Below are positions 2,236 through 8,123 of a stretch of 8,123 nucleotides of DNA, piece after piece. The DNA is taken from the NCBI GenBank assembly GCA_027064425.1, contig JAMOPO010000047.1:1-8123 (forward strand), in the 5' to 3' direction. The translations under genes were made by a program, and so were the position numbers. The stretch comes from Methanobacteriota archaeon. Its GTDB lineage: Archaea > JAADCQ01 > Methanopyri > Methanopyrales > Methanopyraceae. The notes below the pieces were generated by a model. That model worked only from the letters and a program-made list of their open reading frames with translations. It did not search any database and had not been told where the DNA came from. Each line of letters starts with the position of its first letter. Position 1 is the stretch's first letter.

Positions 2236-2367
2236 TCCTCGAAGTAACCTCGAGACCCGGCTTCTCCCCCGGCGGTAGACCTCCCTCAGGCCCGCTGATC
2301 GACCGGTCCACCGATCGGATCCTGGGGTGGAGGGTCGGGAGCGTGCCGGTGCTCGAGTCCGACGGCG

Positions 2368-4874
2368 ATGATCGAGGTCGTCACGGGCGACGGGAGGACC
2401 ACCGTGGGCGAGGGTGAACTCCTGAGCGCCGTGGACCTCGGGTGGGGACACCTCCTGGTCCTGAGAACCCCCGATGATCGGATCGAGTTCGAGCTCGTGG
2501 AGTTCCGGCTCTACGGTCCGCCGGAGGTGAGGGACCCGAAGCCCGAGGTCGTCCGGATCGACGACCGCACGCTCTACCTGGCCACGGCCGGGGTCGAACC
2601 GGTGACGACGATCCTGGTGTTCGACCCGGGGACGCGCCGCCTCTACGCGCTCTACGGTACCGAGTCGAGGGAGACGGGCTGGAGGTGACGGACCCGCGGG
2701 GCCGGACGCTCCGCTACGTCTACGACCCGGAGCCGGGCCCCGTACCGCCCGTCCCGGTGCGCGACGGGACGGTCCTGGAGTGGAACGGGGCGGGTTCGAG
2801 GAGGTCCTCACGACCTCGGGGCCGGAGGACGTACTGCCGTTGGCCGACGCCGGGATCCTGCTGATCTCGCGCACCGGATCGTACCTGGTGGATCTCGAGC
2901 GGGATCGTCCCGGGGTCCCGCCCGTCGACGCCGTGTGGAACGACCACGGCCCGTGCAGCCGCTGCGGGCTCGTCGTCGCGGTCCGCGAGGGCGACGCGGT
3001 GCGGGTGATCACCCCGCTCGGGACCCTCGAGCTCCCGGGCGCCCGGAAGGTGCTCTGGCTGGACGACCGCCTCGTCGTCTACGAGGGTAAGGACGGCGCC
3101 CTCCACGTCGTCACCCACGACGGTCGCCGCGCCCCCGGCGAGGCGGAGGACGCGGAGATGGTGAAGCGCGTCGGACCGTTCGTCGTGCTCAGGGAGAGAG
3201 GGACGTACGAGCTCCTCGCCAGGCTGACGGACGGCCCGCGCGTCGGACTCCCGCTCCCGGAGGTCCGCGGTCGCGAGGTCGTGCATCGCATCGACGACTG
3301 TGAGTGTCCGATCGACCCGAAGGACCCGCTCCCGGAGCGCCAGGTGCCGGATGCTGGTACGTCGTCGAGACCTCGCGCTGGGCGACCTACCGGACGCCTG
3401 GTGCCGACCGGCCGGGAACGGGACGTGCCGCGTCCTGAGGGACGGGGACGAGATCGTGTGGAACTGTCCACGGTGTTCGGGCCCGTGAGGGTGCGGACGG
3501 AACTCACCGGCGATCCCGTGATCGCCGGGCTGAACCGCTCGCTCCTCACGGTCGTGTACCGGGCGCCCGACGGGACCGCCCACGACGCCCTGCTCTCCCC
3601 GACGCCGATCGTCGGGAGGTACACCGACAAGGGAGGTCGTGAGACTGGGGCCCGACGGTCCGGAGCGCGTCGACCTCCTACCGCCCGCCGAGAGGGAGAC
3701 CCTGACGTCGCTCCTCGTGGTCTCGACGGCGCCCGAGTACGCGTGCGTCACGAAGGCCGGGGACCGGACGTAACCACCTGCTCTCGGGGTCCCTGTACGA
3801 CGCCGAGGGACGCGCCCTGGACCGCCGGTCCGGATCGACGCCGGGGCGCGCGGGCGAGGCCGTGGTCGTACCCGCGCCGATCTTTCCCTTCCCTCCGCAG
3901 GTACTACCCCGTCGCGACGGTGCCGGCGCTCCTGGTGAGGTCCCGGAAACCCCGTCCGGCGACCGCGTCGAGCTGAACGGCGTCACCGTGCTGGTCCACC
4001 GGGAGGACGACGGGAACCGTCCTCACGTTCGTCCACGACGGACGCTCCGTGGACCCGGTGCTACCGACCCTCCCACGGGGTGACTGGCGCGTCGAGCGCG
4101 TCTCGGGGAGGGCGCTGAGGCTGTCGACCCCCCGACGGGTTCGAGCTGGAGCCCGTGGCCGACCCGTGGCCGACGCCGACCGTCAGGGTCAGGACCGGCC
4201 CGACCGAGCTCACGGTCGAGAGGTGGGAGGGAGGCGGCTACCGGCCCGCGCTGACGCTCCGGGTCCCACCGCCCGAGGTCACCGTGGCCCTGCTGTCGAA
4301 CGGCGACGTGGCCGCGATCGTCGGCCGGCTGATATTCCTGAGCGGGAAGGCCTGGAGGGGCGTCGGTACCCCCGATCGGTGGCGGTGTGGACCTCCGACG
4401 ATCCGACCGTCCTCCTCGAACGGGTCGCGGCGTTCGACCGCTTCACGCGAGCGCGCGCTGGCGAGGCTACCCTCCGCGTCGGAGCTCGGGTGCGATGGGG
4501 AGGCTGACCGTGATCGAGGGGACCGTGGTCACCCTGATCGGGTCGTCTAGGGTCCTGGAGCCCGGTACCTGAGGCGGCTGGACGGGGGCCGGTTCCTGGC
4601 CGTGTTCGACATCGACGGGGAGTATCTGGCGGCGCTGTCGGACGGGAGGAAGGTGGTGGGCCGGCGCCCCTACGACTCGGTCGAGCCGAGGCCGGACGGC
4701 ACGCTGGTGGCGCGGAGCCCGAGGGTGAGGAGGTCGTGCTGAGGGTCGAGCGGACGGAGGACGAGTGGACGCTGACCGAGGGGGAGACCGGACGAGCGGA
4801 AGGGCGGTGGGAGAACCCGACGGATCCCCGTACCGGTACCGACGGTGCCCGTCCGACGGCGACGATCGGCCTAG
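2368..4874 (+). pseudogene. Long beta-rich protein gene broken by about 14 frame changes
   Basis: No single frame spans this stretch, but protein-like segments follow one another on the plus strand by switching frame: MIEVVTGDGR to LYALYG (2368 to about 2655); RVEGDGLEVTDPRG to LEWNG; GFEEVLTTSGPEDVL to DPLPER (about 2787-3345); a confused part at 3345-3475; VRVRTELTGDPVIAG to TDKG (to about 3630); EVVRLGPDGPERVDLL; HLLSGSLYDAEGRAL; VLTFVHDGRSVDPVL; DGFELEPVADPWPT to LIFLSGKAWRG; SVAVWTSDDPTVLLERV; RLTVIEGTVVTLIG; YLRRLDGGRFLAVFDIDG; EGEEVVLRVERTEDEW. Joined, this is about 830 residues, acidic, with recurring 'hydrophobic strand, DG turn, strand' units like a beta-propeller or beta-helix; I do not recognise a family. 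Two C-x-x-C pairs appear (CSRCG, and CPRC in one frame). At least four junctions are explained by one base in a homopolymer (near 2787, 4018, 4125, 4367). ATG 2368 is the first good start. One frame ends at TAG 4872-4874. Confidence 0.7.
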
Positions 4875-4963
4875 AACTCGATCAACCGCCGCCGCTCCGA
4901 TCCCTTCAGGTAGTCCTTCGAGCACAGTTTGTAGGACCACAGCAGAATTTTACCTTGTTTCAT
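4871..4963 (-). CDS. 30-codon ORF starting inside a CRISPR repeat
   Basis: On the minus strand the ATG within the AATGAAAC end of the leftmost repeat of array 1 opens a frame of 30 residues that stops at TAG 4873-4871. It starts MKQGKILLWSYKLCSKDY and ends in an Arg-rich tail and EF. It is basic, with aromatic and Cys residues and no low-complexity character. It may be a real micro-gene read from array transcripts, or the C-terminal scrap of a gene cut off when the array formed. The function is unknown. The coding case rests on composition only. Confidence 0.3.
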   Translation of the reverse strand: MKQGKILLWSYKLCSKDYLKGSERRRLIEF

Positions 4964-5259
4964 TACCCGTGTTAACTACGGGTTAATGCGAGGAGATGTC
5001 GGTGAGCTGGAAGAAGATAGCGGATAGGATGGGTGTCGAGTCGTTTCATTACTCGCGTTAACTGTGAGTTAATGCGAGCGCCTACGCCTAGGCGCCTGGA
5101 CGATGGGGGTGCATGACTGTGCTTGACTGGTTTCATTACCCGTACCCGTGTTAACTTCGGGTTAATGCGAGAGCAGGGAGTTCGGTCGGAAGCTGTCGAG
5201 AGACTAAAGAACGGCGGCTCAATGTTTCATTATCCGTGTTAACTACGGGTTAATGCGAG
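4957..5259. CRISPR. CRISPR array 1: four 36-nt class repeats, three spacers
   Basis: Repeats lie at 4957-4992, 5043-5078, 5130-5171 and 5224-5259. Each begins GTTTCATTA and ends GTTAATGCGAG, with a central palindrome around GTTAAC. Spacers are 4993-5042 (50 nt), 5079-5129 (51) and 5172-5223 (52), all different. Repeat 1 is identical to the first repeat of array 2. Repeat 2 differs at five positions that largely preserve the stem. Repeat 3 is 42 nt because ACCCGT is duplicated in tandem. Repeat 4 has one C-to-T change in the stem. The arm CATTA-CCCGT pairs with ACGGG-T-TAATG with one bulge. On the minus strand the repeat ends in AATGAAAC, like the common archaeal 8-nt crRNA 5' handle (AUUGAAAN type), so leftward transcription is favoured but not proven. 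No cas genes are in the window. Confidence 0.97.
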
Positions 5260-5327
5260 GGCCTTTTAGTTTTGTCGGGTGGTGTTGGTGGGTACGCCTA
5301 ATTCTTGGGTGGTGGGGTGGGGTGTCT

Positions 5328-5339
5328 GGTATATGAAGG
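5328..5339. promoter_or_regulatory. AT-rich box between array 1 and the cassette genes
   Basis: GGTATATGAAG lies 34-43 bp before the two possible starts (GTG 5364, ATG 5373) of the first cassette gene, a suitable distance for a TATA box with a short leader. On the minus strand the same bases read CTTCATATACC, about 70 bp before the right end of array 1, where a leader promoter for leftward transcription could sit. It could serve either direction. A T-rich run (TTTTAGTTTTG) at 5264-5274, just outside the last repeat, could be a rightward terminator. Confidence 0.35.
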
Positions 5340-5363
5340 GGACCGTCTGTTGTTGGCCGTGGG

Positions 5364-5687
5364 GTGGTTTGGATGAAGTGGGCGAGGAAGGTGTTTGACG
5401 TGTGTGAGGGTGGCCGGTTTGTGGTATTTAAGTCCAGGTCGTGGAGGGGGTCGGAGAAGATGAAGGTGATTGTGAGGGGTGAGGATGGTAAGTCGAGGTC
5501 GTTGGGGGTGTTCAGTCCGGAGGTGGCAGAGAGGGTGGTGGAGGTAGCGAAGAGGGCCGATGGTCCTGAGGGTGTGGTTGCTGGCGTGATTTGGGGTACG
5601 TTGGTGGCTTTGTACGGTGTGAAGGGAGCGAGGAGGGTGGTGTGTAGGATGGTGGAGTTGGCTGGGGGTGAGCCGGTTGAGCTATGA
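5364..5687 (+). CDS. Small protein of unknown function, cassette gene 1
   Basis: The product is 107 residues from GTG 5364, or 104 from ATG 5373; the ATG start (MKWARKVFDVCEGG) looks as good, and neither has a clear Shine-Dalgarno. The N-terminal half is basic and strand-like (GRFVVFKSRSWRG, then MKVIVRGEDGKSRSLGVF). The C-terminal half is helical (EVAERVVEVAKRA, then ARRVVCRMVELAGGEP). It has no signal peptide or clear membrane helix, although AGVIWGTLVALYGV is hydrophobic. The C-terminal pattern E-V-A-[ED], then A-x-R-V-[VL]-C-x-[ML]-V-x-L-A-G, recurs in the next gene, so the two are probably paralogues. Its end overlaps the next start by 20 nt, which suggests one operon. Codons are GTG/TTG/AGG-heavy, unlike the C-ending codons of genes left of the arrays, suggesting foreign origin. 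I do not recognise the family. Confidence 0.75.
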   Translation: MVWMKWARKVFDVCEGGRFVVFKSRSWRGSEKMKVIVRGEDGKSRSLGVFSPEVAERVVEVAKRADGPEGVVAGVIWGTLVALYGVKGARRVVCRMVELAGGEPVEL

Positions 5688-5979
5688 AAAGTTGGTGCGG
5701 TTGGTGGAGAGATTTGTCGAGGATGAGGAGACTAGGGTGTGGGCGAATAAGCGTGGGGTTTTGAATCTGACGAAGGGCAATGATCATGTGATGGGGGTGC
5801 GTGTGGGTGAGGAGGTGGCGGATGCGATGGCGTCGGAGTTGTTGGCGTGTCGAGTGTGTGGGTGTGGGTTGGAGGAGGCGTTGGCGAGGGTGACGTTGGT
5901 GGGGTTGGCGTCGGGGTTGCCGTTGGAGTACGCGGAGCGGGTGTTGTGTGAGTTGGTGCGGTTGGCGGGGCTGGGCTAG
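5668..5979 (+). CDS. Small protein of unknown function, cassette gene 2
   Basis: The product is 103 residues from GTG 5668, inside the end of gene 1 with a G-rich stretch (GGCTGGGGGTG) at the start. No ATG follows until residue 42 (a GTG lies at codon 12), so I keep the GTG. The N-terminus is helical and charged (YEKLVRLVERFVEDEETR). A strand region (GVLNLTKGNDHVMGVRV) leads to two helices with clustered Cys (LLACRVCGCGLEEAL) and the C-terminal AERVLCELVRLAGLG, which matches gene 1 in pattern. The C-x-x-C-x-C group could bind metal, but with no second ligand pair this is weak. The stop TAG at 5977-5979 lies on a CTAG palindrome that also gives the stop of the convergent gene. The strand is extremely G+T rich (about 80% in 5821-5880). 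The function is unknown; the pair may act together as a two-subunit module. Confidence 0.75.
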   Translation: MSRLSYEKLVRLVERFVEDEETRVWANKRGVLNLTKGNDHVMGVRVGEEVADAMASELLACRVCGCGLEEALARVTLVGLASGLPLEYAERVLCELVRLAGLG

Positions 5980-6488
5980 TTTCTTGCGGCTTCTTCTATG
6001 CCCTTCTTGAATTGTTTTTCCACGTGCTTGGTGACGACCTCGTAAAGTTTGGTGAGGGTTTCTATTTCTTGGTCGGTAAGTTTCCAGGCTGGGACGGGGT
6101 GGTCTCGTAGGAGGTTGTTGAGAAGTTGCCGGCCGTTTTTGGGTCGGTTTTGATGCCCATGGCGTCGGCGAGGAGGATGAGTGAGGCGGGTTCGGTGGCG
6201 GTGATCTTGTGGAGTTTTGTGGAGTTGGGTTTCGGCGTGGATTTCTCGGTATTTTTCGGCCCAGTGGAGTTTGGTGGTTCCGGGGTAGTGGAAGAGGACG
6301 TAGGTGTCGTCGATCTCGTCGTGGGAGAGGATGCCGGTGGAGAGGGTCCAGATGCGGCCGTAGGGTGCGGGCTTGTGCCAGGGTTCGATGGTATTTAGGA
6401 AGTCTGGATCGGGTTCGACCTCTGCGACCTTGGTGATGATGGGGTGGTCGGCTTCACGGAGGTTTGCGAGGTGTCGGTAGATTTCCAA
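5976..6488 (-). CDS. Unknown protein, cassette gene 3, with an internal out-of-frame stretch
   Basis: The frame gives 170 residues from TTG 6488, only 10 bp from the array 2 repeat. No ATG is available and the frame stays open back into the repeat to a TAA at 6527-6525, so the native N-terminus may have been lost. The N-terminal half looks real (EIYRHLANLREADHPI, then EPWHKPAPYGRIWTL, then DDTYVLFHYPGTTKLHW), as does the C-terminal helix region (WKLTDQEIETLTKLYEVV to KKGIEEAARN). Between them, roughly residues 95-122 are His/Arg/Pro-rich and unlike either side. The shifted frame there reads LHKITATEPASLILLADAMG, which is far more protein-like. A perfect 10-bp tandem duplication (6207-6226) starts the shift, and a missing base near 6128-6132 restores it, so the frame stays open by chance. 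I call it a damaged gene of unknown family. If array 2 is transcribed leftward, its transcript would run straight into this gene. Confidence 0.6.
   Translation of the reverse strand: MEIYRHLANLREADHPIITKVAEVEPDPDFLNTIEPWHKPAPYGRIWTLSTGILSHDEIDDTYVLFHYPGTTKLHWAEKYREIHAETQLHKTPQDHRHRTRLTHPPRRRHGHQNRPKNGRQLLNNLLRDHPVPAWKLTDQEIETLTKLYEVVTKHVEKQFKKGIEEAARN
6207..6226. repeat. Perfect 10-bp tandem duplication inside cassette gene 3
   Basis: TTGTGGAGTT occurs twice back to back (6207-6216 and 6217-6226). Removing one copy on the minus strand joins HAETQ directly to LHKITATEPASLILLADAMG. The duplication therefore looks like a recent slippage or copy event that shifted the frame by one. Confidence 0.85.
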
Positions 6489-6498
6489 TTTTGATCCC

Positions 6499-6797
6499 GT
6501 TTCATTACCCGTGTTAACTACGGGTTAATGCGAGGGATTCGCCAGTTACCCGTCGGTGGTGTACGGGATCGCGGCGGTGGTGGAGACGTTTCATTACCCG
6601 TGTTAACTGCGGGTTAATGCGAGCGGACGTGCCCGATCCGAGGTCGTTGTGGGAGTACGCCGGCATTTTCCTCGAGTTTCATTACCCGTATTAACTGCGG
6701 GTTAATGCGAGGTGGCCCCATTCAGCTTCGTCTACCGGCAGCGGCGGATGCTGCCGGGCGGGTTTCATTACCCGTATTAACTGCGGGTTAATGCGAG
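6499..6797. CRISPR. CRISPR array 2: four 36-nt repeats, three spacers
   Basis: Repeats lie at 6499-6534, 6588-6623, 6676-6711 and 6762-6797, all 36 nt. Spacers are 6535-6587 (53 nt), 6624-6675 (52) and 6712-6761 (50), with no similarity to each other or to array 1 spacers that I can see. The two rightmost repeats are identical (core GTATTAACTGCGGG). Moving left the core becomes GTGTTAACTGC, then GTGTTAACTAC, the form seen in array 1. Identical repeats at the right and drift to the left fit a leader on the right and minus-strand transcription. The left edge abuts the start of cassette gene 3, leaving no room for a leader there. Confidence 0.97.
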
Positions 6798-6890
6798 GGC
6801 GGTCCGGTCCTGCAGGATCCGAGCTTTACCGCGCGAGGACCACCAACCCCGACCGCTCCAAAAACCTTGGGCGTGCTCGTGGTATTTAAG
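6798..6890 (-). promoter_or_regulatory. Putative leader and promoter of array 2
   Basis: On the minus strand CTTAAATACC at 6890-6881 is a good archaeal TATA box in GC-rich surroundings. Expected initiation near 6858 would leave about 60 nt of leader before the rightmost repeat at 6797. No matching leader sequence is seen beside array 1, which fits a single leader serving one original array. The plus strand also reads GTATTTAAG here, so direction rests on the array layout. Confidence 0.45.
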
Positions 6891-7345
6891 GGTTGCCCGG
6901 GATTAGGGTGTGATTTGGTAGTACGTGATTTGGAAACTAATCCGTTTTCGATCCGTCGAAAGGCGCTTTAACGAGCCCGGGTATGAGCAAAGCCTAGTCA
7001 ATTATGATTTAGTAATAGGATTTTTGGCATCTTGTAATAACCCCGTGGGGGTTGCGGATGGTGATCATACTGGGCTAATAGTGGGATCCTTTTCATGAGT
7101 TAAAGTTGGTTAACGCTCGGGATGATAGAGGGTGCAGCTAGTTCACCATGACAGGGAACAACATGCCTACCAGGTAAAACCCTCATCAATCCTACCAAGT
7201 ACCACGAAAGCTGGTAATACTTCATACCATGGTCGTGGATGGTGGTGTGCGGTTTCCTTCAATCTAATTCGGTTTCTGTATAAACTAACATGTTTTTTGA
7301 TCGATGCTTTTTGTTTCCTTATAACCTAAAAGCGTACCTTAAGTG
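6891..7345. other. AT-rich stretch without a convincing gene
   Basis: G+C falls to about 45% and in places below 30% (7261-7320), against about 70% in flanking regions. Stops are frequent in all frames. A 65-codon plus-strand frame (7132-7329) ends in a hydrophobic tail but looks like chance translation of AT-rich DNA. Visible structure: a hairpin with arms AACCCC/GGGGTT at 7039-7053; oligo-T runs at 7293-7298 and 7308-7316 that could end rightward transcripts; and a possible degenerate CRISPR repeat near 7091-7119. It may be a regulatory or origin-like region, or imported DNA; nothing proves either. Confidence 0.5.
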
Positions 7346-8123
7346 GCCACCCGCCCGCTGGGCCGGTCGCTCGATGCCCTCGGGAGTGTCCCGGCCGCCC
7401 GCCCCGGTAGGGACGCAGGTACTGTGGGAGGTGTTCCGTGGGATCCGATCGGAGTGCGGAGGGGGCTGCCTCCGGGCTTCGATCCCGACGTTCCGGCGCC
7501 GGGCCGTGGGTGGCTTCCATCGGCGACCCATCGTCCCTCTCGGTGGGAGAGCGTTGGACGTGTTGTGGGCGCGCTGACCGTCTCGGAATCCCGACCCGCG
7601 GGAGGTCCGCTCGCGTCCCCCGCTATCCCTCGCATGGTCCAACGTTCCGACCGGGGTGCCGGGCGGTCCTTCGGCGTGTGGGTAGGGCGCTGCGGGGTAT
7701 GGGGCTTAACCGCGCTCTGGGTCCGGCGGATCGTCGGGCTTGACTTCGTCGTTGGGACCCCGTCTGGGGGGTCCTCGGCTCGCGGTGGGCGTTCCGGGCG
7801 GGCGGCCTCGGGCTGGTAAGCCGGGATCGGAGGTGAGGGCGGGTCGCGTTCCGGCCTTCGTGATCCCTTGGTCGGGCGGCCCGGCCGGGATTCCGCTTAG
7901 TCCCGCCGCCGGATCATCCTGGCGCGGTGCCGGGTCGGTGGGCGCCGGCCCGGAGCGGTGATCCACCTGGCGCCCGTCCTTGACTCCGGGTGGCCGGCCG
8001 CCCTAGGTGTCGTTCCCGGTGTCGGGGGAGCTGAGGGCTGGGTCAGGGGCCGTGCCGCCGGGTCGCCGGTCGGTGCCATCGTGGGTTCCCGCTCCGGGGT
8101 CGAGCGCCCTACGGGGAGGTCGA
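7346..8123. other. Very GC-rich stretch without a supported gene
   Basis: G+C is above 70% and several overlapping frames are open on both strands, as expected by chance at this composition. They are Pro/Gly/Arg/Ser-rich and lack the Glu/Val/Leu helix and strand patterns of the genes further left. One plus-strand frame from GTG 7958 (starting MIHLAPVLDSGWPAALG) is open to the window edge and could be the start of a gene that continues outside; support is weak. I searched by eye for rRNA, tRNA, SRP and RNase P RNA landmarks and found none. Decayed coding DNA is possible. Confidence 0.4.

Follow-up and report, generated by a model that had tools for sequence, protein, structure and literature searches.

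In a draft genome of Methanopyrus we found a CRISPR array that is interrupted by a cassette of 1,239 bp lying in the position of a spacer. We consider it fairly probable that the locus is a single array of the Methanopyrus type, that it acquired a piece of plasmid or viral DNA through homologous recombination between repeats, and that the array is by now an inert relic. Methanopyrus is a heat-loving, methane-making archaeon. The stretch analysed here (the window) is a complete contig of 8,123 bp from a draft of 57 contigs, which is 99% complete and represents a genome of 1.54 Mb. For comparison we used the reference genome of the genus, which we take to be that of Methanopyrus kandleri AV19.

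The split array and its leader

An earlier note on this DNA, made from the letters alone, had described two arrays sharing one 36-nt repeat in the same direction, with similar spacer lengths. The pattern search returned eight such copies (R1 to R8), and the six spacers measured 50, 51 and 52 nt in the left half and 53, 52 and 50 nt in the right half. The gap from R4 to R5 was 1,239 nt, and the coordinates of these two intact repeats place the cassette exactly between them, as had been stated.

4957-5259, minus strand: leader-distal half of the array, R1 to R4 with three spacers (from repeat coordinates; repeat orientation as in the reference arrays)
4957-4992, R1; 5043-5078, R2; 5130-5171, R3 (42 nt); 5224-5259, R4
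5260-6498, no strand assigned: cassette in spacer position (from strand composition, change points and homologue searches)
6499-6797, minus strand: leader-proximal half of the array, R5 to R8 with three spacers
6499-6534, R5; 6588-6623, R6; 6676-6711, R7; 6762-6797, R8
6798-7060, minus strand: array leader (from alignment to the reference leaders), with box A CTTAAATA at 6883-6890
4903-4957, plus strand: block of 55 nt identical to positions 1240662-1240716 of the reference genome

On the minus strand the repeat reads CTCGCATTAACCCGCAGTTAATACGGGTAATGAAAC, i.e. CTCGCATTAACCC...GGGTAATGAAAC, and has the orientation of the reference arrays, in which the repeats are CTCGCAATTAACCCGTAATAATACGGGTAATGAAAC and close variants and the spacers are mostly about 50-60 nt long. 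The array thus has the 36-nt repeat of the Methanopyrus type, CTCGCA(A)TTAACCC...GGGTAATGAAAC, together with the long spacers (50-53 nt) and, on the right side only, a leader whose box A, TTTAAA, precedes the first repeat. Judged by these sequence features it is a CRISPR array of the Methanopyrus kind. All five reference arrays close, on the side away from the leader, with a degenerate repeat. Here R1 is perfect, but such an ending is a habit seen in those five arrays and no strict rule. The first spacer of the reference array at 1306914 is 70 nt long and opens with a copy of the last 11 nt of the repeat, as if it were the product of an irregular integration.

Five arrays with TTTAAA leaders were found in the reference genome and have likewise been described for M. 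kandleri AV19 (PMC3695527). The present array resembles these in repeat family, in the usual spacer length and in its leader, which is homologous to theirs with box A in register; it differs in that the five M. kandleri AV19 arrays found here are without a cassette and stand in a genome with cas genes, whereas neither cas1 nor RAMP genes were detected in the present draft.

Rightwards of R8 the sequence aligned with the five reference leaders at a mean alignment z of 8.4 against shuffles, with box A in the identical register. The same alignment applied to the cassette end beside R4 gave a z of -0.1, and no leader was detected there. The TATA-like element that the earlier note had seen on the right side only was confirmed, at the register taken by the TTTAAATA box in each of the five reference arrays, and the second leader for array 1 that it had named as a counter-case was not found at that array's cassette end. 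These results point to a single leader and to leftward transcription. The two halves were thus most likely one array originally, read leftwards from the right-hand leader.

As to the repeat variants, the earlier note had arranged them in one series with the most altered copies in array 1. This stood insofar as the altered copies R2 (5 changes), R3 and R4 all lie there. It did not hold for R1, the copy most distant from the leader, which is not degenerate and equals R5 over all 36 nt, and R3 is a copy of 42 nt, enlarged by an internal 6-nt duplication (TACCCG). R4 differs from R5 by one base. An enlarged repeat comparable to R3 was also seen near the distal end of one reference array. In R2 two changes together turn one stem pair from C-G into T-A and so preserve it, which might reflect continued selection for structure or descent from another repeat lineage.

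In the whole-genome pattern search the repeat pattern was unique to this locus (the reversed pattern as control gave 0 matches), and the variant was absent from four other genomes of the genus. A relaxed pattern matched one Bacteroidia MAG and one viral contig; no second repeat was close by and both matches were rejected as chance-like. The reference genome, about 93% identical over the left flank, is collinear with the window up to position 4957, where R1 begins, and diverges from there on, the array being missing at this place. Neither an uninterrupted array nor an empty site was found in the relatives. The earlier proposal of one eight-repeat array with an inserted module is therefore supported by the leader found on the right only, by compositional breakpoints at the repeat boundaries (see below) and by the lack of convincing relatives of the cassette, but the uninterrupted array that it had expected in related strains was not among them.

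Several observations were made in the flanks. The 55-nt block at 4903-4957 is fully identical to the reference although the adjoining gene is only about 93% identical. This gene (2290-4900) is the orthologue of an intact reference gene of 1,137 aa; its first part is missing and it contains many frame changes, and we concluded that it is a decaying gene. The segment at 1749-2290 belongs to a multi-copy family with more than a dozen copies of 72-79% identity in the reference genome. The segment at 7341-8123 has 74% G+C and only 8% A; it matched none of the other genomes of the genus and shows no clear gene.

Composition and genes of the cassette

The plus strand of the cassette consists of 44.5% G, 28.7% T, 13.8% A and 13.0% C. 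Its G+T fraction was 0.73. In 443 windows of cassette size, drawn from reference genome stretches and the left flank, the median was 0.53 and the highest value 0.60. A fit with two breakpoints, using G+T alone, placed the edges at 5223-5277 and 6396-6502, and the repeat boundaries fall inside both intervals. The spacers of array 1 showed no extreme G+T bias. By this measure the cassette is foreign DNA, and, as in CRISPR locus F of Sulfolobus, the foreign DNA lies exactly between two repeats. We infer that it derives from a mobile element.

Three open reading frames were found:

5364-5687, plus strand: ORF1, 107 aa; codon periodicity p<0.001
5668-5979, plus strand: ORF2, 103 aa, overlapping the end of ORF1; codon periodicity p<0.001
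5976-6488, minus strand: ORF3, 170 aa, with a TTG start 10 nt inside the cassette beside R5; codon periodicity p<0.001

Given the composition of the cassette the lengths of the frames are not significant by themselves, and the case for genes therefore rests on the codon periodicity. Third codon positions contain 65-74% G in the two plus-strand genes, while in the minus-strand gene C accounts for 56% of them and A for 26%. They are thus G or T on the plus strand in genes of either direction, and the bias is therefore one of the strand rather than of the genes. A bias of this sort would be expected of a replicon whose replication is strongly asymmetric. In the middle of ORF3 (about 6150-6250) another frame is preferred, adjacent to a short tandem duplication, which suggests decay.

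Family searches with ORF1 to ORF3 gave no match, also when ORF3 was translated through its frame change. The structure model of ORF1 was weak (pLDDT 68), with a helix, three strands and two helices, and had no significant fold match; that of ORF2, likewise weak and of low confidence, was all-helical. No integrase, Rep or structural protein was recognisable among the cassette proteins, PADLOC detected no defence gene (a weak dGTPase score was attributed to chance) and Rfam gave no match. When cassette DNA and proteins were compared with 40 other archaeal genomes, phages and viral contigs, no convincing relative was found. The same was true of plasmids, searched with the cassette DNA and the ORF3 protein; the viral and plasmid collections contain few or no Methanopyrus elements. 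The search against plasmids and viruses that the earlier note had recommended thus yielded no donor. The four other genomes of the genus contained no homologues. The spacers gave nothing above chance against the cassette and the reference stretches, nor did two of the six against viral contigs, and none of 31 reference spacers matched the cassette.

Proposed route of entry into the array

The starting point would be one array, read on the minus strand from its single right-hand leader, and the donor a piece of plasmid or viral DNA on which one or more matching CRISPR repeats were present. A repeat of the array would have recombined with a homologous repeat of the element, so that the 1,239-bp fragment came to lie with an intact repeat on either side. 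The exact placement between intact repeats is the outcome expected of such an exchange, and we infer recombination as the entry route. Archaeal viruses and conjugative plasmids are known to carry stand-alone repeats of the host type (PMC6858448), and in Sulfolobus arrays have been inferred to rearrange by recombination of one repeat with another (PMC4390879). Virus and plasmid mini-arrays and stand-alone repeats are similar to the present case as a potential source of a matching repeat; they differ in that no virus or plasmid bearing the present repeat was found in our searches, apart from one chance match. The recombining pair could be R4 and R5, with one difference, or R1 and R5, which are identical. 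Because R1 equals R5, R2 to R4 are either original members of the array or arrivals with the cassette; if the pair was R1 and R5, they were brought by the element.

The latter case leads to the idea that the cassette and R2 to R4 together made up a small circular molecule of about 1.54 kb bearing a mini-CRISPR array, and that this molecule recombined at the R1/R5 repeat of a host array originally of four repeats. It agrees with the identity of R1 and R5 over 36 nt with the altered copies between them, with the perfect R1 at a place where all five reference arrays carry a degenerate copy past the last good repeat, and with the mini-arrays known from archaeal viruses and plasmids (PMC6858448). 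However, a crossover between R4 and R5 fits nearly as well with its difference of one base, the spacers of array 1 lack the extreme G+T bias and no replication gene is present within the 1.5 kb, and we hold the circle to be unlikely. A more elaborate proposal, to which we attach a quite low probability, is a tiny extrachromosomal element of Methanopyrus of about 1.5 kb, with strand-asymmetric replication, three genes of unrecognised families and its own mini-CRISPR array, which used the shared repeats as an attachment site free of integrase.

It is improbable that the locus is an assembly chimera of two molecules joined at CRISPR repeats. The draft consists of 57 contigs, and the identity of R1 and R5 would make paths exchangeable for a short k-mer assembler, but R2 and R3 are distinctive and one base occurs in R4 only, which makes most links unambiguous; a read of more than about 40 nt across a repeat settles the order, and a foreign molecule with the same repeats would still be required.

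Insertion of a transposon or MITE into a spacer is very unlikely, even though ISH4 and a 132-bp MITE are known in archaeal arrays (PMC4390879) and the array of Haloquadratum HBSQ001, which lacks cas genes, contains a MITE (PMC3119063). At the cassette, whose ends the earlier note had suggested examining for duplications, neither terminal inverted repeats nor a target duplication nor a remnant of a spacer was found, and a transposase is lacking. Moreover, the coding bias persists up to 10 nt short of R5 and the G+T bias as far as R4, which leaves no room for a split 50-nt spacer. Equally remote is the reading as two separate arrays enclosing native genes, which the earlier note had itself named as a counter-case: several arrays are present in the reference genome, but the cassette end of array 1 has no leader or promoter in register (z -0.1), the composition of the cassette is unlike that of the host and the four other genomes of the genus hold no homologues. 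Least probable of all is Cas1-Cas2 integration of an oversized piece as a giant spacer, which the exact repeat boundaries resemble, since the remaining spacers measure 50-53 nt, the insert lies four repeats from the leader, the genome has no cas1 match and there is no graded series of other long inserts.

Functional state and known parallels

The survey of cas genes covered two families. Neither cas1 (PF01867; control genomes positive) nor the RAMP genes of type III effectors (PF03787; six in the reference genome) gave a match in the draft, whereas both are present in the reference genome. On this basis the array is probably an inert, decaying relic that has lost its function, in line with the altered repeats and the decayed neighbouring gene. 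A transcript from the leader would yield guide RNAs from the right half only and then run through the cassette.

A foreign cassette within a CRISPR array is rare but has been published before. The direct precedent is CRISPR locus F of Sulfolobus (Saccharolobus) solfataricus, where an 899-bp fragment of a pNOB8-like conjugative plasmid lies between two repeats (PMC4390879). Both cases have about 1 kb of foreign DNA in spacer position in an old archaeal array that is inactive or, here, probably so. Locus F has no leader, and its insert can be traced to a known family of donor plasmids, whereas the present array, in Methanopyrus, has a leader, and no donor of its insert was found. The size conservation suggested for locus F was unsupported here, where the insert equals 13.5 repeat-spacer units and no whole number. 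The residual CRISPR of Haloquadratum walsbyi HBSQ001 with the MITE HqIRS37 (PMC3119063) is likewise a cas-less remnant array with a foreign insert; there, however, the MITE splits a spacer and is itself a relative of transposons, and the present cassette shows neither a spacer remnant nor transposon ends. Two things are unusual here, the organism and a cassette with so extreme a strand bias.

With this locus, the capture of foreign DNA between CRISPR repeats would be clearly documented in archaea for a second time, and the route by recombination is made testable by junction PCR. The cassette is a candidate fossil of a mobile element with a striking strand bias. If the element of about 1.5 kb is real, the repeats of the host array would serve it as an attachment site without an integrase.
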